Assembly (NCBI GenBank): GCA_025677825.1
Contig: JAIXMO010000072.1
Span: 54,490 to 118,489, forward strand
Reading direction: 5' to 3'
DNA: 64,000 bases
Source of the DNA: Helicostylum pulchrum
Lineage: Eukaryota > Mucoromycota > Mucoromycetes > Mucorales > Mucoraceae
Within the stretch, counting starts at the first letter, position 1, and each line of letters opens with the position of its first letter. Both the position numbers and the translations under genes were made by a program. Shown here in pieces: positions 14,439-51,162 of this stretch. The notes below the pieces were generated by a model, which saw only the letters and a list, made by a program, of their open reading frames with translations, did no database searches and was not told the origin of the DNA.

Positions 14439-14576
14439 TTTCTTTAAATCTTAAACCATTACTTCGAACGTGATGTGCTCTGCACATAAAGGTTTTACAC
14501 AAACAAAAGGGTAATTTTTAATTACACAAACTTCCTTTTCGGGTTATGCTTGAAAACGCATCTTGACGCTTTTTAT

Positions 14577-14616
14577 TTTCAAAAACCGCTTAACTGTTAG
14601 GTAAATAAGGGCGTCC
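14577..14616. mobile_element. Orphan right terminal repeat, same family as the 43.9-50.6 kb element
   Basis: The stretch contains CTGTTAGGTAAATAAGGGCG and the preceding TTTTCAAAAACCG. It is nearly identical to the right terminus of the intact element (50592-50632): 36 of 41 aligned bases or better by eye. The element end would fall at 14616, with CAAGAAAA as candidate target sequence. No left end was found. It lies 140 bases beyond Fanzor relic B, in the same orientation as in the intact element. Confidence 0.72.
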
Positions 14617-14732
14617 CAAGAAAAAGGTGACGTGAACTCTGCAAACTGTTGAAGTAGAAAAAAAAAAACTTGATTTCCTTTTTCCCAAAAATTAAATTAT
14701 AGAATAAAAAGTCGTGTTAGAGTGTATATAAT

Positions 14733-16968
14733 ATGGCAGATACCAAACCACCTATCATTAAAAAAAGATCAGAAGTGCGTTCCAAGACCGCCCAAAAACC
14801 TATACCTTCTATCGCCCAAACTCGATACACGACCACACAAGCAGTTGTATCTGCCGCTAAAAATAAAGCAAGCAGTGTAGTTCATTCTGCTCGAGAATGG
14901 CTTACTCCTTCCTCAGAATGGGCTTCACTTCCTCATCTCGATTCCTTATCTACCGTTATGTTCAGTCCTCTTGCTGCACATCCCGTATACCGCTCCGAAT
15001 CCATGGTCAAAGCACTGCAGCTAATGCAACAACAGCAACAGAGGCAAAATACAGCAAACTCATCCACCATCATTTCGACCCCCAGAGCAGACCTTGTATT
15101 ACACGGTAAAACATATGCCTGGCCCTCTAGTACCGTTTTACTTCAAGCTGATATACCCGAATCGTCTTCCCCTGTTTCTTTATTTCAAGGCTTTGCTTCT
15201 GCATATCCTTCGCTAGCTAAATCACCAAAGCCTGTTTCTAAAAGATCTCGACAAAAGAAGAAGAAATCAACTAATACAAGAGGTATGGTTGGTATTATAG
15301 TATTAAATGTACATTTATTTATTGAAGTTGAATAGGATTAGGTGTGCCTAAATCCCTGACGCAAATTATATCTGAAAGAGAAAAGAGAGCTCGAGACTGT
15401 GATAAAATCAGTATGCAAAAGGTAACCATTATATTAAAAAATAAGGTTATGGTTACATGTTTTTATTAAAATTTATCACCTAGTCTTCTACTGCAAATGA
15501 AATAGATCAAATTAACCTACAAATTAATAAATTATTAAATGATCGCAAAGCTCTAGAAGAAAAATGGGAAAGATTAGAATCAAAAGATATTCAGTTACAA
15601 CTAATTAGTAAATATAATACATGTATATGTATATTATATATAAAAGTACTGACTAAAAAGTATTTAAAAATAGTTGATGATTTGAATGATGCAGTTTTGG
15701 ATATTGAGGAAGGAGGAAGTGTCCGTTTAAAATCAGGTCGAGAATCTATAGACGATGAAGAGGAAGAATACGAATCCGGCACTTGTTTCAAGACATTGGA
15801 AGGTCATAAAGACGACGTTATCTGTCTCGATTTTAATCACCCCAGAGGCATGATGGTATCTTCTTCTATGGATGGTACAGTAAGAGCTTGGGATTTGTAT
15901 CGTAATAAGTGTTTAGGAAATATTGAAGGGCATCAAGGCCTTGTGCGGTGTGTACAACTGGATGATGCACGTCTTCTGACAGGTTCAGACGATGGTACTA
16001 TTAAACACTGGGATTTATCCTTAATAGATGCAACTGCTTCTTCTTCTTCCATTAGTTCCTTCTCTGTATTCTCAAGTGCTCCTAGTTCTCCTAGTTTAAC
16101 TGCCGTTAGTAGTTCTAGTGGATTATTAAATGAGTCGTTTACATTGGAAGGACATCAAGGCGAAATCACTTGTTTGTATGCAGATAGAACTTCAGTTGTA
16201 TCTGGCTCTGGCGATAAAACAATCAAACAATGGGATCTAGAAACTCAACAGTGTCTTTTGACTCTGGATGTTTTATGGGCCAGTGGTAATAGTAATAATA
16301 TTGTGGATTCCTGGTTGGATAATTCTACTTCTAGCTACGGGTATGCCGCACATGATTTCATTGGCGCTTTACAGTTTTGGGATTCTGCTTTAGCAAGTGG
16401 TACCTCTGATGGTAAAATTAGAATGTGGGATTGTAAGTATTTAATTTTTAATTTAAAGTATAAAAACTAATTATAATAAAAAATAGTGAGAACTGGTCAA
16501 GCTCATCGTACTTTACCCGGTCATAATGCACCAATTACTTGCTTACAGTTTGATGATGTACATCTTGTTAGCGGTAGTTTAGATAAAACAATTAGAGTAA
16601 GGAAAAAAAATGGAGGAAAAAAAAAAGATTTTGTATATGCTAACCATGGTTATTAGATTTGGGATATTCGTACAGGAACTGTTTTCGATACACTGACTTA
16701 TACTACACCCGTGTCAAGTTTACAATTTAATTCTTCGAAGATTATTAGTTCGGGAACAAGCAATACAATCGATGTAAGTATGATACACGTATGAAGAGAA
16801 AAAAAATGGGTACTAATTATTATTATTTTCGTATAGGTCTATAATCGTACGTCGTTTCAACATACAACTCTTTCAGGTCATAGAAATCATGTCAACTCGA
16901 TTCGCTTCCATAGTGATGTATTAGCTAGTGCAGGCAGTGATAATGTTATTAAATTATGGTCAATTTAA
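14733..16968 (+). CDS. MDV1: Mitochondrial division protein 1-like WD40 adaptor
   Basis: Adaptor linking Fis1 on the mitochondrial outer membrane to the dynamin Dnm1 during fission. Seven exons (14733-15282, 15336-15421, 15484-15607, 15674-16432, 16487-16596, 16657-16773, 16837-16968) join in frame to 625 residues. The order matches Mdv1/Caf4: an N-terminal extension, a coiled coil (about 225-255), an acidic linker and a C-terminal WD40 propeller. WD repeats are clear: [15 protein letters not shown]...[21 protein letters not shown]...[21 protein letters not shown]...TIKQWDLE, then further blades to TLSGHRNHV...VIKLWSI. The third blade has a Ser-rich insert. Several introns fall inside blades. 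Confidence 0.85.
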
Positions 16969-43886: not shown

Positions 43887-43894
43887 CCCATCTT
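43887..43894. repeat. Target-site duplication, left copy (CCCATCTT)
   Basis: Identical to 50633-50640. The next base on each side is also G, so a 9-bp duplication is possible if the element starts one base later. Confidence 0.82.
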
Positions 43895-43921
43895 GAACCT
43901 CCTTATTTACCAAACAGTTAA
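43895..43921. repeat. Left terminal inverted repeat
   Basis: Reads GAACCTCCTTATTTACC then AAACAGTTAA. It pairs with 50606-50632 (4 mismatches in 27) and, inside the last part, even better with the orphan end at 14 kb (CAGTTAAG). Confidence 0.8.
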
Positions 43922-45139
43922 GGAAAGTAAGGTGATTGGATGAAACGAAAGATGACGTCAGTTTTAATTTCTTGGGGATTTTATGAGCTCCATCCTTACC
44001 TAATTAAAGGGGCGCAAGGGTCGAACGGTGTTGAAACCGCGGATAATGAAACTTTTCTAAGTTTCCTCGTTGTTATACGTCTTGATACGACAAATGGCAA
44101 AGTCCTTGTTTTAAATAAGTATATGTAAGCAAAGATGTATATATAAGTGTTATATTACATACCAATTAATCAGAGTCATTAGCCACTATGTGCTGGTTAC
44201 AGCCATAATGAGTAAATCATCGTGATATATTGTTCTAAGAGAGTAGTTAAAAGTAAAAGTAAGATTAATTTAGATGGGCCTCGAGTTAAATACATAATAT
44301 TTAAATTTTGATATATCTTACCTGTACTAAAATCAAACATTATTTGTAGTCAACGGAAACCATGTAACTACCAGAATAAAGGGACCACATATCGGAATAA
44401 GATTAGGTAGACGGCATTCTTGGGTAAATAGATAAATGAGCTGCGTTCGTACTAAACCTTGGCATCAATAAAAACCTCTTGCCACCATTAAAAAACCTTT
44501 CGAGAGGAAAAAAATTAAGGGGTACAAGAGGAAAAGATAACCAAAGAGTAGCATCAGCTTGAAAATATAGAGGCAGCAGTTGTTACCAAAGACCATAAAA
44601 GATTACTAACTAGCAAGAATTTTAGCAGGCCTTCAATAAAGGTAAGTAACCTATTGTAGGATTGATTTATTATAAATAAGGATAGATACTTTACCAAGAG
44701 GGTATGTAGATCTATAACACCTAAGTAGATATTCGCTTTTCTTTTCAGCAACCATCTTGATTATCAGAACAGTGTATTTCTATAAAATAAGTAAAACTGA
44801 GTACCGTATATGAAAACTATGCTTTTCACTTATGAAACTTATACTTCCCTCTTTTTTCTCGGATAATGCGGATAAAAAAAAAATAAAGAAATGGAAGGTA
44901 TTTATAAGAACAATGAAAGTTTGATTTATAGTTTGAGATGTCCTGATATACGAGTTTTTTCTTTTCTTATTTCAATCCTTTTATGAAAAAGTAGATTCAA
45001 AACAATACGTTAAGCTACAAAAATGAGGATATGTTGACACCCTCCATTCTATTGAAATACTTAGTGTTTGAAAGTATACTTAAGTACCGTAAAAAAGATC
45101 GAGAGTAGTTAACAACATAATATGTATACTTTCATTATA
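43922..45139. other. Left arm of the transposon, no gene recognised
   Basis: 1.2 kb of AT-rich sequence. Short open frames on both strands (43940-44128 plus, 44554-44751 minus) show no known motif. It may contain decayed transposase sequence, the promoter of the Fanzor gene, or both. Confidence 0.4.
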
Positions 45140-45227
45140 CTTGAGTTTCGTTCATTTTGATTGGTGTAAGATGTCAATGAAACGTTTCATTGACATCTTA
45201 CACCAATCAAAATGAACGAAACTCAAG
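45140..45227. repeat. Perfect 88-bp palindrome over the Fanzor start codon
   Basis: Two 44-bp arms with no spacer and no mismatch, centred between 45183 and 45184 (ATGAAACGTTTCAT). The arms end at 45140 and 45227, where symmetry stops abruptly. The right arm includes the Fanzor leader and its first five codons; the left arm is their inverted copy. It could form a DNA cruciform or, in RNA, a hairpin that hides the AUG. A fold-back assembly error must be considered. Confidence 0.85.
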
Positions 45228-48200
45228 AAAAAACTAAACAAACGTTGGCTCTCGTCCAATCAAAACAAACTTTATTAAAAAAAGGGGTTCATTCATTGAC
45301 TATGCGAAGATTAATTGACAAGCTATATGTGAAGACCTCTAGTGTTATGATTAAACAATCTCTAAATAGTAATAAACGGATTCGTAGGCATGTAAATACT
45401 CCTCTCCTTTTCTTTTTCCTTTTAAAAAAACTTATTATTTCGATTATGACCTGTAAGTTTTGTAACACTCTATAATATAAGTACGCTGACACTGTTTTTA
45501 TATATATTTAGTGAAAAGAAAAAGAAGCCTACTAACTGCCAGTGATCGCAGAAGACGAAGAGTGGATCCTGACAATAATCCTCCCGCCCCAAACCCTGTA
45601 CCTGAAGAACCCGACGATAAGGTTTACAAAGCCTTTTTTAATCGAAAGAGTAAACTTGCTACTCTTTTGACGCCTAATTATAAAGTCTATGAGGTAAAAT
45701 CAATTAATTAAAAGCGTAAAATTTATCATTTTTAATTTATCAGTAAGTAATAGAACTTATTCCGTAAGGTGGCAGAAGAATTTACCATTGCTCGTCGTGA
45801 CGCCTTGAATTTTGTTTTATTTATGGTGATTCAGTGGTTTAATACTCAATGTGTTGAACTCTTTGCTTACCAAACCCAACAAGTCCCCCAAATTCAAATA
45901 TATTTGCGAAGAATTCTTCACGAAACGTTTTTGATGAATCAACTTCGAGATTTAGTACAACAAGAACTAATCATTCCCAACCAGTATGAAAATTTATTGG
46001 ATTTGCGCGCTCAAATACAAAACTATTTACTGAAATACTTCCCACCAGCCAACGATTAGACGAACTATTAGTAGAATTAAACAATAATATTAACAGTCAA
46101 GAAGTTCAACTTGAATATGAACAACAAAGAACGGCACAAGACAATCTAAGCTTACATATTCACTTGGTTTTACTTGACCTACATCCGCAATTTACAGACT
46201 TAAGAACTGTTACTGCTCGTGCTGCCGAAGCCGCAGAAAATGTCAAGACCACTACTGAAGAACAGCTCACTGCTCTTTTTAACTCGGTAACTGAAAACCA
46301 ACAAGCAGTCCTTCAAAATGCTAGAAATCTAAGGGATCTGGAACGTAAAATTTTAGCTTTGCGTGGGAAACTTGCAACTATTTTAAGAGAACAACCATTA
46401 GAACAGGCAGATAACGTTCGCTTGAGAACTATCCGGCAAATCCAGATCGCAGTTCTATCTTCACAAGCAGCTTTACAAAGAATGAGAGAACAAGAGTTGC
46501 GAGACCGAGATTTCTTGAACCAAAACGAAATAGCACAAGAATATATCCGTAACACGCAAATTCTATTACAAACGATTGATATTGCTGAAAATTTTACCAA
46601 AATTTTTCAAATTGTCGATTCTACCTTGCAGCAAATTGTTTTGGCGTTAAGAGATCCTGAGTACAACTTCATTTTTCCGAGCGTTACCGACGAGACTTTT
46701 TGGTCTCACGTATATAGAAAGGTTTTAGCAGACCCTGAAAACGATAATCGGCGAATTGTAAGTGACAGTGTAGAAAAATTCCCATATACGCAGTATCTTA
46801 ATATAGTTTTTTTTTTCAATTTTAGAATTTCAATAGGTCAATCGTATCATACTTTGATGACTTTGATGTTTCAAGAAAGGTTCCTGGCACAGATAATTAT
46901 TTTTATAACTTACCAGTTGTAGACAATATACACAGGGGAATTTCTCATAGTTATGTCAGTTCTATAATTCAAAGTGAGTTCGATATATACTTTATATATT
47001 TAGAGACATTAACTCTTATTTTATTTAGATGTCACAATGCATCTTCTTTCTATCAATTTAGGGATGATTCATCTATTCAAAGGCTTCTTATTGTTTCATC
47101 AAAGACGAAATAATGTTCAAGTTCCTGTCATGACTATAGGTAAATATATATATTCATATATATATATCGCACTCAATATCTTTGAATAATGACTTATATT
47201 TTTGATTTAGTATAGCCAAGAAAGCCGCCAATAGAATTATCAACCATCATCAATACGAAGATTTACAAATTGAACATGAAATACCTGGCCTTATAGATGT
47301 ATACAATCGTATTAAATTAATATTTGACGCTGACTTTCGTGCTACTGAACCTGAAGATTTATTGGATTACGAAAGCGCCAAGGCACACCCTTTAAAGTAT
47401 TTACGTGTGAGCTATCGTTTGCTCCAAGAAGCCTCACGTAACGTTGATTGGCCGGTCAAACGTTGCTGTCTCCTTCCTTCCCCGTCGAGTCATCGAATTG
47501 TTCATTTTCCTCTTAATTCATATGTTACAATGTATGGTCTATTTGAAAAAGCCAATAATCGAAATATTCGCATACCGGATGATTTATTGGGTCGTAACGG
47601 TAATTTTATAGGCGTAACAGCTTTTCTTGATATTTATTCGGGAATTGCTAATAGACAGAGAATTTGGGAAACTCTGTTTAATATTAATAAGTTACAAAAA
47701 CGGTGTTTAACGTACTTACAAGGAGAAAATAATGATCTTGATATTAACGATCCCCTCCGAAGAGCAAAACTTGGTTTTGGTCTCACTACTGATGGCCACA
47801 TAATTTCAGTTTTGTTTGAGCGAGTATCCAGGGAGCAAATACCATTTGATACGAAGGAAGTAAAGTTTCAGAAAAGAAATCTTAACTTGACAAACAAGAC
47901 CAGAGGTATATATCCATTGTATAAAAACCCAACTGGTATTACACTGCAGGACAGAATTATTGGAATTGACCCTGGTATGTTAAATATTAAAAGTATGAGT
48001 ATAATAGACACTAATTTTTTTTTGCTAGGTGTTCGCGACATTGTTTGTGCCGTTGACTGTACACCTCAAGAATTGACTAACAAGTACACTACTAAGGAAC
48101 ACTCATTATCGATTAGTAACGCGTCGTATAAGTAAGTTTATTGTCAATAACGTTAGTCACACAACAATTTTAATAGGCTACTAAAAAAAAATTTAACCTA

Positions 48201-49497
48201 CTAGGTTCCGTTTGGGTATGCAGTGGATTAATCAAGGAGAGCTACAAAGCCGTAATAAAGAGAGAGTGCAAGATTCTTACGACCGCCTAAAAAGCTCAAA
48301 GGTTTCCAATACCTACGAAATTAGACAGTTGTTAAATTCTGTTTATCAAGAACACAAAAAGTATAAGATAAAATAATTGTAATGGACGATAGAAAATTAA
48401 CTCAATTATTTGATAAATATATAGGATATTTGACTTTATGAAATCCTATAAGCACAGGGAGAATAAGGGGCATAATTATTCAAATCGCCAAAGAGCTCAA
48501 GATCATGTAGCCCGAGTTATTCTTGGTACGACAAACAAGGAAGAACCGTACAAACTCTCTCATGGTTCTTCTTCCTCACATCAACGAAATATAAGAAAGA
48601 GATATCGCCGAACGATTATACGACATTTCTCTCAAAATCCTCGTCCTTCGTATCCCCCTTCAATTAGGACTCCAGGTAATAATAATCAACGCACTGTTGT
48701 AGCATATGGTGATGCTTCCATTCGAAGCACCTATAAAGGCAACACTCCTATTCCAGTAAAGGTAAAAATTATGCGCAATGTAAATGTCTAGTATTTTTTA
48801 TTTATCTTTTTCTATGTATAGGCGATACAAAGAGCAATTGCAACTAAAGCCCTTGTAATTCCAGTCGATGAATTCCGTACGTCTGTAACATGTTCCCATT
48901 GTTTTGGAAGATTAGAAACGACACCTGATGAGCGTCTAGTTTGTACACACACGTAACATTATTCGTTCTTTATAAATAGTACAGCAAATTATAGTTCTTT
49001 ATACTCATTTTTTTTAAATTTATAGAAAAAAACTACATCGTTCAAACGGGCAAGATGGACACCCAGACGAAAAAAAAGCAGTACTAAAATGTTTTAATGA
49101 AGAAAACCACGTCTTTCATAAAACTAGTGAATGTCCTGAACGAGTTCGTCCAGGTAAAGTCTATTTTTCACTTATTGGCGCTTACAATAAACTAGTGCTG
49201 ATTTCGTTAACTTTTGTAGGACGACGCCGTGACATTTATCCGCTGAAGCTGTGCCGGCAATGTCAAGCTGGAAATAACGCCGGCCCATTGGTACGTAATA
49301 TAAACCTTTAGTTTAGGAATATATTTATACTTACACCAAATATATTTTCTTAGTATTGGAATAGAGACGTTAACGCTGCTTCCAAAATCAGGCAAATCCT
49401 TACTGCGTATGTTGAACAAGGATTCGACCTGGAATCTAGACCGGAACAGCTGTCCAGAAGTATAAGGCAACAAGATGAAGACAATGAAGAAACTTAG
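45212..49497 (+). CDS. Fanzor RNA-guided nuclease homologue (intact, 14 exons)
   Basis: Eukaryotic TnpB relative; family members are RNA-guided DNA endonucleases with a RuvC site. Proposed exons: 45212-45452, 45512-45693, 45769-45983, 46049-46757, 46826-46973, 47029-47139, 47216-47974, 48029-48131, 48205-48360, 48425-48761, 48822-48952, 49026-49153, 49220-49290, 49354-49497. All 13 GT-AG introns keep frame, giving 1,144 residues. RuvC-I is IGIDPGVRDIVCAVD (Asp787). A central YGDASIRSTYKG block precedes DEFRTSVTCSHC, which holds the relocated Glu (1004) and the first zinc Cys pair (1011, 1014). The second pair LCRQC (1085, 1088) and RuvC-III WNRDVNAASK (Asp1102) follow. The N-terminal 780 residues are long for the family and mostly helical. 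Splice choices for introns 1 and 3 are the least certain. Confidence 0.87.
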
Positions 49498-49599
49498 AGC
49501 CGTTTCAAAGAATCTTTTCTTTTCTTTTCTTTTTTTTTCTTTTCTTTCTTATAAATAAAGGCTTCTCAAACCAAAAAATGCAGACTATTATTTCTCACT
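49498..49599. other. 3' flank of the Fanzor gene
   Basis: A pyrimidine-rich tract (TTTTCTTTTCTTTTCTTT type, about 49514-49551) is followed by AATAAAG (49554-49560), a likely polyadenylation region. In Fanzor/TnpB elements the guide RNA usually derives from the gene's 3' end and the element end, so this area is a candidate, but no structure was established. Confidence 0.4.
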
Positions 49600-50522
49600 T
49601 CAGAACCTTCCACATGCTTTTATAAGCAGTCTCTCGCATCTTATATCGAGTATGTACATTAACAGGAATTCAATTCTTACTACTAGTAGTGATAATTTAA
49701 TTAGAGCTTTAAATAAAGCACAATTGGTAACATCCTCAACAGTAACAATCAACTTACTAACTGAAATTTTGAAACACAACGCAGATTGACTCCATAAAAT
49801 AACTTTTTTTAACTGGGTCAACCAAAGTTTAACGGAATCTCTCGGATTTTGTGCTTTTTTCTCTGTGGAGTGAACCATCTGATCACGGTGAACGATAACT
49901 TGAGCTTTGTTACCAAGAGATTGCTCTACATCGATATTAAAGTTGGCTTGACTATGACGAAGAAAATTGTTTTGAATTGAAATTCTGGTGTCTCTCTTTC
50001 TGAATCCTTTGCATAATATTTGCTCATTCAACTGTTTAGCTACTTGTGACAATGGAAGAAACTTCGAGTCTTCAAGCCCAGCGATCTGATGATTATGGTT
50101 ACCACTGTGATACAAGACAACGTTATTAGGATCGCTTTTATAACAGGTAGCTACCAAACTAGTTAGCAGTACATTCAATTTTTTGTTACTTTTTTTTGTA
50201 ACTTTCTAGACCCTTCGCTGCTATTGTTTTGCTCTGTTTTAGCGTGCCTCTTTTCACCGGAATGATGACAAGAGTAATACGTTTTGAAAACGTAATCAAT
50301 ATAGCGGGTTCTGGGCTTAGGACCTTTGGTGGCATTTAATCGCTGAGCTTGTGCCCTCTCTTGCTCCTCTGCGGTTCTAGTTGTGCCTTTCACAAATCTG
50401 ACACCGTGGAGGGGAATATAGTCTGCTACCGCTTTCTCCCAATTGGTCAAAGATACGGTAAGTCTCTCTGAAATGAGCGTATAACAAATGATATGAATAG
50501 ATGTAGCGTTATTACTTGACAC
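49600..50522 (-). pseudogene. Mutator-like transposase N-terminal remnant
   Basis: Two minus-strand frames (50175-50522 and 49600-50178) overlap and are joined by a one-base frame change in an A-rich stretch near 50180. Together they read CHHSGEKRHAK ... ATCYKSDPNNVVLYHSGNHN then HQ, a Cys-His...Cys...His-x-His cluster like the zinc domain before the DDE core of MULE transposases. EDSKFLPLSQVAKQLNEQI follows, a typical linker in zygomycete MULEs. The catalytic DDE region is missing: the frame stops at 49600 and the Fanzor gene begins on the other strand. Probably inactive. Confidence 0.55.
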
Positions 50523-50605
50523 TGTTTAAAATAAAAAGATTTGATATCATTAAAGTGAAGACTAAAATATGATTTTATTTTATTTTATTTATTTTCAAAA
50601 ACCGT

Positions 50606-50632
50606 TTATCTGTTAGGTAAATAAGGGCGTTC
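50606..50632. repeat. Right terminal inverted repeat
   Basis: Ends ...GTTAGGTAAATAAGGGCGTTC. It is the partner of 43895-43921, and its longer inner part (TTTTCAAAAACCG) is shared with the orphan terminus at 14577-14616. Confidence 0.82.
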
Positions 50633-50640
50633 CCCATCTT
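50633..50640. repeat. Target-site duplication, right copy (CCCATCTT)
   Basis: Direct repeat of 43887-43894, directly after the right terminus. Confidence 0.82.
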
Positions 50641-50763
50641 GGGTGATATAAACAGTCGTAGGGATGACGTAAAAGCAAAAAAAAAAAAAAAAAAAAGCCC
50701 GCGCGTCAATATAATACTTCGCATATTACAACTACTTTTATTTCCCTCTTAAACAAACAAAAA

Positions 50764-51162
50764 ATGTCGTTCCGTCCACCTCGTTCTTTACCTATTCTTA
50801 CACTTTTCCATAATGTAAAGTCGGATAAATCCAGAGCAGCACTTGCTATGCTTCAAAGCAAACAAAAGAACGCCAGTGGTGAAGAAAAGTACCGTATTGA
50901 TATTATGGATGAGCAACAACAGACTCCGACGGACACACAATTGAAGCAGATTGCTAGCTTTTTAAAGAGCCCTACACCTTGGAAGGACATGGTGCTGGTG
51001 GATGATAAGGATATTGGAAACGCTCAAGATGCTTTCCAAGCGTTGAAAAATAAACCAGAGTTACTTTGGTGTCCTATTGTTGTTGATTGGGAGAAAGGTG
51101 CAGCTGTGACAGGGTCTAAAACTTTAGAAGCTATTGAGAAATTGATAAATGAGAGAAAGTAA
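50764..51162 (+). CDS. FMP46: Fmp46-like (DUF1687) thioredoxin-fold protein
   Basis: A single exon of 132 residues. The start LPILTLFHNVKSDKSRAALA and the C-terminal LLWCPIVVDWEKGAAVTG match the fungal DUF1687/Fmp46 family, a small mitochondrial protein with an ArsC/thioredoxin-like fold and unknown substrate. The N-terminal MSFRPPRS could serve in mitochondrial import. It lies 130 bases right of the transposon and converges on the kinase gene at 51298. Function is inferred from the family only. Confidence 0.75.
   Translation: MSFRPPRSLPILTLFHNVKSDKSRAALAMLQSKQKNASGEEKYRIDIMDEQQQTPTDTQLKQIASFLKSPTPWKDMVLVDDKDIGNAQDAFQALKNKPELLWCPIVVDWEKGAAVTGSKTLEAIEKLINERK

Follow-up and report, generated by a model that had tools for sequence, protein, structure and literature searches.

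A predicted Fanzor1 gene in a Mutator-like element of Helicostylum pulchrum, with sister copies that carry a damaged transposase region

Fanzor1 genes have been reported in MuDR elements of three Mucorales that lack a transposase (Bao and Jurka 2013; PMC3627910, in its available part), and the element family described here bears on the question of what Fanzors do for the transposons that host them. Its starting point is a 6.7-kb mobile element of Helicostylum pulchrum at positions 43895-50632 of the window, i.e., of the whole 64,000-nucleotide stretch analyzed (C139:54490-118489, in a genome of 32.2 Mb and 168 contigs). This element belongs to the MuDR-Fanzor1 kind known since 2013. With the elements of PMC3627910, as far as the available text goes, it shares the occurrence in Mucorales, Fanzor1, MuDR-type terminal inverted repeats (TIRs), a long target-site duplication (TSD) and the lack of a transposase in the Fanzor element, and it differs in a TSD of 8 bp instead of 9 bp. 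The family adds to that kind a copy type with both genes, a putative swap of Fanzors within a common body, and a target rule, specific in position and side, that is based on a motif resembling the cyclic AMP response element (CRE). The available text of PMC3627910 describes no sisters with the same ends and a full-length, damaged transposase, no target motif and no Fanzor exchange, and a search mostly outside subscription journals found neither the two-gene copy type nor a Fanzor exchange at a fold-back palindrome in print. An earlier note on this DNA had called the combination of host, transposon and nuclease unusual; the association itself was reported in 2013, and the family is not devoid of a transposase gene, the sister copies having its full-length, though damaged, region.

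SpuFz1 of Spu-1 also lies between inverted repeats and occurs in many copies, with its omega-RNA between the stop codon and the right repeat and, in the part of PMC10432273 available, no transposase between the repeats. PpFz1 of Parasitella parasitica (PMC11423790, available part) is likewise a Fanzor1 of the Mucorales; the Fanzor of the window (Fanzor A), unlike it, has no match to the PDB Fanzor chains detectable by protein or profiles. The present family offers, in one mould, Fanzors with and without a transposase gene, two different Fanzors on a single body and an insertion with its TSD.

As read from the sequence, the window copy has paired ends, a TSD, an open 14-exon gene and a transposase stump (Table 1), and it has sisters, the B type, with a different Fanzor and a damaged transposase region; the window copy and its closest relatives form the A type. 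In agreement with the earlier note, the TIRs are imperfect (27 nt, 85% complementary), and CCCATCTT, an exact 8-bp repeat (8/8), directly flanks both ends. We rejected any meaning of CCCATCTT on its own, given its roughly 1000 genomic occurrences (519 forward, 527 reverse); its significance rests on its position at both ends. The TSDs of the Mutator superfamily are 8-11 bp long. Among the seven copies with both ends, an exact TSD was found in two, the window copy and C87 (ATTTAGTT, 8/8), and an ambiguous one in C108 (6/8, or 7/7 as a 7-mer, in poly-A). A genome search for the same termini, which the note had named as a check, gave 79 matches, and since 40 of 86 candidates were scored, all copy counts are lower bounds; the TIR pattern itself was found 34 times, against once for its reversed control. 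There are at least five A copies (window, C166, C87, C116, C83) and at least seven B copies (C138, C32, C108, C115, C94a, C94b, C109) whose ends are common to the A type, with related right ends on two more contigs, C84 and C90. TIRs, TSD and same-end copies support the view, already taken in the note, that the window element is a recently inserted transposon of the Mutator superfamily (a Mutator-like element, MULE), and we regard it as non-autonomous.

Table 1. Features of the element and its surroundings (window coordinates)
Feature	Position	Strand	Remarks
Left TSD copy, CCCATCTT	43887..43894	.	
Left TIR	43895..43921	+	inverted-repeat pair
Left body module, common to A and B types	43895..45186	+	83-96% identical in six B copies along its full length or the greater part; C94b, first 289 bp only (98%)
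TGACGTCA within the left end	43953..43960	.	
Fold-back palindrome	45135..45232	.	49-nt arms, 96% complementary; where A/B similarity stops
Alternative first exon, doubtful	45212..45383	+	belongs to 1126-aa model
Fanzor A gene, 14 exons, 1071 aa	45446..49497	+	open frame, 13 GT-AG introns
Fanzor A exons 1-7	45446-45452, 45512-45693, 45754-45983, 46049-46757, 46826-46973, 47029-47139, 47216-47974	+	
Fanzor A exons 8-14	48029-48131, 48205-48360, 48425-48761, 48822-48952, 49026-49153, 49220-49290, 49354-49497	+	
N-terminal MULE transposase stump, FAR1-type zinc cluster	49600..50525	-	orientation opposite to that in B elements; about 92% DNA identity with B over 49860-50559
Right TIR	50606..50632	-	
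Right TSD copy, CCCATCTT	50633..50640	.	
TGATAT where many right flanks show TGACGT or ACGTCA	50644..50649	.	two transitions off, no match
Flanking host gene (DUF1687, thioredoxin-like)	50764..51162	+	132 bp between right end and start codon

The 14-exon open gene of the earlier note holds with all its introns, except for the first exon: two H. pulchrum models, P0001 and P0002, begin MTLKRKRS, which corresponds to a 7-nt exon 1, and we therefore replaced the upstream start, an ATG inside the palindrome. All motifs that the note had named are present, and the protein fits the published Fanzor pattern, D-X(125,275)-[TS]-[TS]-X-X-C4 zinc finger-X(5,50)-RD (PMC3627910, available part), with all spacings, through D714, TS933-934, CSHC 938, LCRQC 1011 and RD1028; none of 20000 shuffles of the protein does so. 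The Mucor homolog P0003 also fits the pattern, and Cunninghamella P0008 fails its strict form. Globally, Fanzor A is 96.7% identical to P0001, 95.5% to P0002, 44.1% to P0003 of Mucor circinelloides and 43.4% to the B-type model P0004; the HPULCUR proteins apparently come from another H. pulchrum assembly. A protein search returned eight Fanzor A homologs among 4848 candidates, all named from Mucorales. The protein database annotates PF07282 for P0001, P0002 and P0008, and in our scoring this family reached 20 bits in P0003 and 24.7 bits in P0008 (E=2.6e-5). Searches of NCBIfam and PHROGs were uninformative, with one weak PHROGs "transposase" match (P0008, E=0.0012), and those of viral contigs and Rfam gave nothing useful. 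The Fanzor A branch is far from the structurally solved Fanzors. The large size of the protein, the introns and the non-IS607 transposon point to Fanzor1. The note's contrast of an intact nuclease with a broken transposase stands in the sense that the gene is open and motif-complete, a predicted nuclease, and that the transposase is a stump.

The transposase-like zinc-cluster remnant seen earlier proved to be the N-terminal part of a MULE transposase, and the window copy has no transposase catalytic domain. The B elements carry Fanzor and then transposase in tandem, both on the + strand, and the MULE transposase domain is found among them: C32 matches Pfam MULE PF10551 (E=1.7e-6, 28.8 versus 27.6 bits) and SWIM PF04434 (E=5.5e-4), and C94a matches FAR1 (E=1.5e-4) and comes just below the PF10551 threshold with 27.1 bits. 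Fifty relatives of this transposase were found in a protein search, the named ones fungal and nearly all from Mucorales. Four of the seven B copies (C138, C32, C108, C115) have both the Fanzor and the transposase region; C94a and C94b have the transposase region, with the Fanzor mostly or wholly missing, and in C109 the left part alone was recognized. The A-type stump is 91-92% identical to B DNA, and 185 of 215 residues are identical to C94a.

The two types thus combine a common body (83-96% DNA identity) with Fanzor proteins that are 43% identical. Over the left 1.3 kb, the window copy is 95.9% identical to C138 and 83-85% identical to C32, C108 and C109; this similarity ends at element position 1292, 3 bp past the center of the palindrome, beyond which the B type differs. 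The kinship of left modules shifts from pair to pair, C166 being 97.5% identical to C109 and 92.8% to the window copy over the same stretch, which argues for recombination between copies. The palindrome center has been lost by three separate deletions (1108-1313 in C166 and C116, 1155-1998 in C87, 1194-1704 in C83), as expected from an unstable palindrome. We infer that the Fanzors were exchanged when the body broke at the palindrome, was extended by fold-back synthesis and became linked to a different Fanzor gene; in an alternative order of events, the ends would have been homogenized later by gene conversion.

The insertion sites follow a target rule, which is a position- and side-specific statistical fact. 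Right flanks were taken from TIR-pattern ends (20 listed, 18 distinct ones used, including one family left end, C166, and several solo right ends); C102, a 3-mismatch match ascribed to chance, C115, which has 211 flanking bases identical to those of C138, and C132b, which is an end of the left type, were dropped. AYGTCA/TGACRT lies within 40 bp in 14 of the 18, the window flank being included solely for its site at offset 32. For comparison, 3000 random sets, sampled from the window and five loci, averaged 0.6 such flanks and reached 5 at most. In 7/18 flanks, exactly 13 bases (offset 13) separate the element end from the ACGT core, and ATGTCA at the same offset in C87, C83 and C114 raises this to 10/18; near offsets occur with ACGTCA at 14 (C90c, C84b) and 17 (C84a) and with GCGTCA at 15 (C32). 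Furthermore, GTCA stands at offset 15 in eight flanks, and no tetramer exceeded five at one offset in 3000 random sets. The CRE-like motif was found in none of 14 left flanks (six of them at stubs), and ACGT in one. Outward open reading frames (ORFs) of at least 50 codons start 117, 129, 132, 228 and 266 bp away in five of nine right flanks examined, counted without a random control, and one of the other four flanks spans just 347 bp. C166 sits in a TGACGTCA-type left end, and 13 bp separate its own right end from ACGT. As separate observations, C166 abuts a 77-bp left-end stub (L029:2066-2143), an insertion of the family into a left end of its own, and a solo 46-bp right end at window positions 14571-14616 is followed by TGACGT at 14628 (ACGT 13 bp out) and by an outward ORF start at 14733.

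Atf1 is a CRE-binding basic leucine zipper (bZIP) protein. The target rule may be read as site-directed integration of the kind described for Tf1 and Atf1 of fission yeast, where insertion also occurs into promoters with activator sites (PMC7175516, available part); Tf1 is a long terminal repeat retrotransposon, whereas the present element is a DNA transposon, and any host protein involved here would be hypothetical. Among the matches listed, no literature on Mutator target sites mentioned TGACGT. The rule predicts the sites of new insertions and of any guides read from the flank.

Based on these results, we consider it probable that the window element is a recent, non-autonomous MULE with a Fanzor1 cargo, mobilized in trans, steered by a motif, retained by its Fanzor and derived from a rejoined B body. 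The transposase of a B-like element, intact at the time, would have cut and pasted A elements in trans, and integration would be steered to sites at a constant distance of 13 bp from a CRE-like motif of the bZIP type, the right end facing the motif and, in many cases, the start of a gene. The Fanzor with an RNA guide would then cut the emptied site or a homologous uninserted one, and repair would copy the element back, as in the TnpB-like retention model discussed in PMC10432273 (available part). The A type would stem from a B-like body that broke and was fused to a different Fanzor gene, an event that left the palindrome behind.

Several results weigh against this reading. No intact transposase was found: the window copy and the six B copies read have none of their own, all six B regions showing a frameshift or an early stop. 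P0044, a 653-aa protein annotated in the other H. pulchrum assembly, omits 44 residues exactly at the C94a frameshift; we rejected it as an intact transposase, because a model that skips the damaged stretch is no proof of an intact gene. The TSD is absent in four of the seven two-ended copies (C83, C138, C94b, C32). PF07282 scores below its gathering threshold in Fanzor A (19 versus 26.3 bits, E=0.0016), five PDB sequence searches gave no Fanzor match, and the structure model of the Mucor homolog is poor (pLDDT, the predicted local distance difference test, 43.6). Between A copies, nonsynonymous and synonymous differences stand at 32:8, 30:4 and 38:14, as in neutral decay. No omega-RNA was found, the right-end regions of one A and one B copy folding like shuffles (z 0.13 and 0.19), and the stop codon of the Fanzor lies 1.1 kb away from the right end, which differs from the arrangement in SpuFz1 (PMC10432273, available part). 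Finally, the right flanks of the window copy, C94a, C94b and C90b do not fit the offset-13 rule.

Of the competing explanations, the strongest concerns the reader of the target, which might be the transposase's own WRKY/GCM-like zinc cluster, recognizing TGAC, with no host bZIP protein involved. This is a real if doubtful contender. Plant WRKY domains bind TTGAC, and a FAR1-type domain stands at the N terminus of this transposase; against the idea, TGAC and ACGT are absent from both 27-bp TIRs.

A somewhat weaker challenge holds that the Fanzor is a passive passenger, a captured and drifting cargo of no use to the transposon. The state of the copies speaks for it. Among four A copies compared over the Fanzor gene, that of the window alone is open throughout. 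C166 bears some eleven private insertions of 1 or 2 nt, of which several may be assembly errors given its place at the end of a contig, and its intron-2 donor is altered; C116 shares this altered donor and also contains one in-frame stop; in C87, exons 1-2 and part of exon 3 are missing and the intron-12 donor is altered, the rest being open. C83, with large internal deletions, was left out of this scoring. Exons and introns diverge alike from the window copy (1.4/1.4% in C166, 1.2/1.4% in C87, 1.7/1.4% in C116, with the 1126-aa model), and given this equality and the nonsynonymous excess, the copies show no sign of recent purifying selection. All four B Fanzors examined are damaged, C138, C32 and C108 by in-frame stops inside exon blocks and C115 by broken frames. 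Against a mere passenger, the Fanzor A and Mucor proteins keep the motif set at 44% identity, which argues that the lineage was constrained over long times, and the Fanzor gene is present in two versions on one body. We hold a passive cargo to be the less likely account.

Beside this, several of the stops in C138, C32 and C108 fall where relatives have glutamine or arginine, as would result from C-to-T changes. The elements C138 and C115, which have the 211 right-flank bases in common, themselves differ by 2.7%.

Two further proposals are each improbable. In the first, the motif at offset 13 would reflect the survival of insertions in motif-rich promoters, with no directed integration. The ORF starts beside five of nine right ends would suit this, but promoter composition would fix neither spacing nor side, and the base-exact spacing in 7/18 flanks (10/18 with ATGTCA) and the absence of the motif from all 14 left flanks count against it. 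In the second, the transposase stump would act as a repressor that binds the ends without catalysis. The KP derivatives of the P element are deletion forms that keep the DNA-binding part of the transposase, as the stump does; in the present element that part is in inverted orientation, with an altered start codon, and the nuclease forms the main cargo. In favor of repression, 201 codons of the stump form an open stretch in all five A copies, truncated transposase is annotated as a six-member protein cluster (P0059, EDC94DRAFT_649420 [Helicostylum pulchrum]), and pN/pS (nonsynonymous and synonymous differences per site) against B is 0.061/0.147, a ratio that includes constraint on the B branch. 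Opposed to it, the ATG of the B transposase is GTG in the five A copies, and the entire stump, once a 44-nt intron is allowed for, is open in three of the five, C83 having an early stop; the C87 stump was left unscored, as its anchor differs. Least credible is the notion that the gene is a TnpB-like relative and no functional Fanzor, which the weak Pfam score and the lack of a PDB match would allow but the exact published motif with its spacings, the shuffles and the same transposon association in Mucorales weigh against.

Published Fanzor RNAs cover the right repeat and extend roughly 14-15 nt beyond it, in some cases with the TSD included (PMC10432273 and PMC10711439, available parts). Given the 1.1-kb gap between stop and right end, a guide RNA in the present element would need a separate promoter; the left-end region folds weakly (z -1.46). 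It is imaginable, if a long shot, that the family joins two addressing systems, CRE-steered integration and a Fanzor guide from the same promoter flank, with Fanzors swapped like cartridges on the common body. Fanzor guides normally derive from the right flank, and the guide of a copy steered in this way would then consist of promoter DNA with a CRE-type site. If so, a single ribonucleoprotein could cleave all alleles of the landing promoter that lack the insertion, and the guide of C166 would aim at the transposon family itself: bases 9-23 of its flank, the would-be guide, are one or two bases away from the left ends of 8 of 12 other copies, the remaining four lacking the left-end stretch compared.

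Further Fanzor-like exon matches of 34-59% identity lie outside the listed MULE copies, in C130, C24, C154, C123 and C158, and the genome probably holds other Fanzor elements besides these copies; a search for inverted repeats around the C130 Fanzor led nowhere.

Solo left ends, 77-83 bp long and with 99% identity to that of the window copy, occur at five places, in C57, C93, C123, C125 and C102 (L042:1028, L043:1044, L044:1070, L045:1003 and L046:1117). We rejected them as miniature inverted-repeat transposable elements, there being no TSD at the stub end and no credible one in the 1.1-1.2 kb downstream; no partner TIR was found on their own contigs, except for the 3-mismatch match in C102 taken as chance. 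Their breakpoints, at 77, 77, 78, 78 and 83, lie close together, at the point to which the CRE rule would direct an insertion. C90 has two right ends in the same orientation, 90 bp apart (L041:5755-5845), and 228 bp beyond the outer one starts an ORF that, from its beginning, we take to be SAR1-like.

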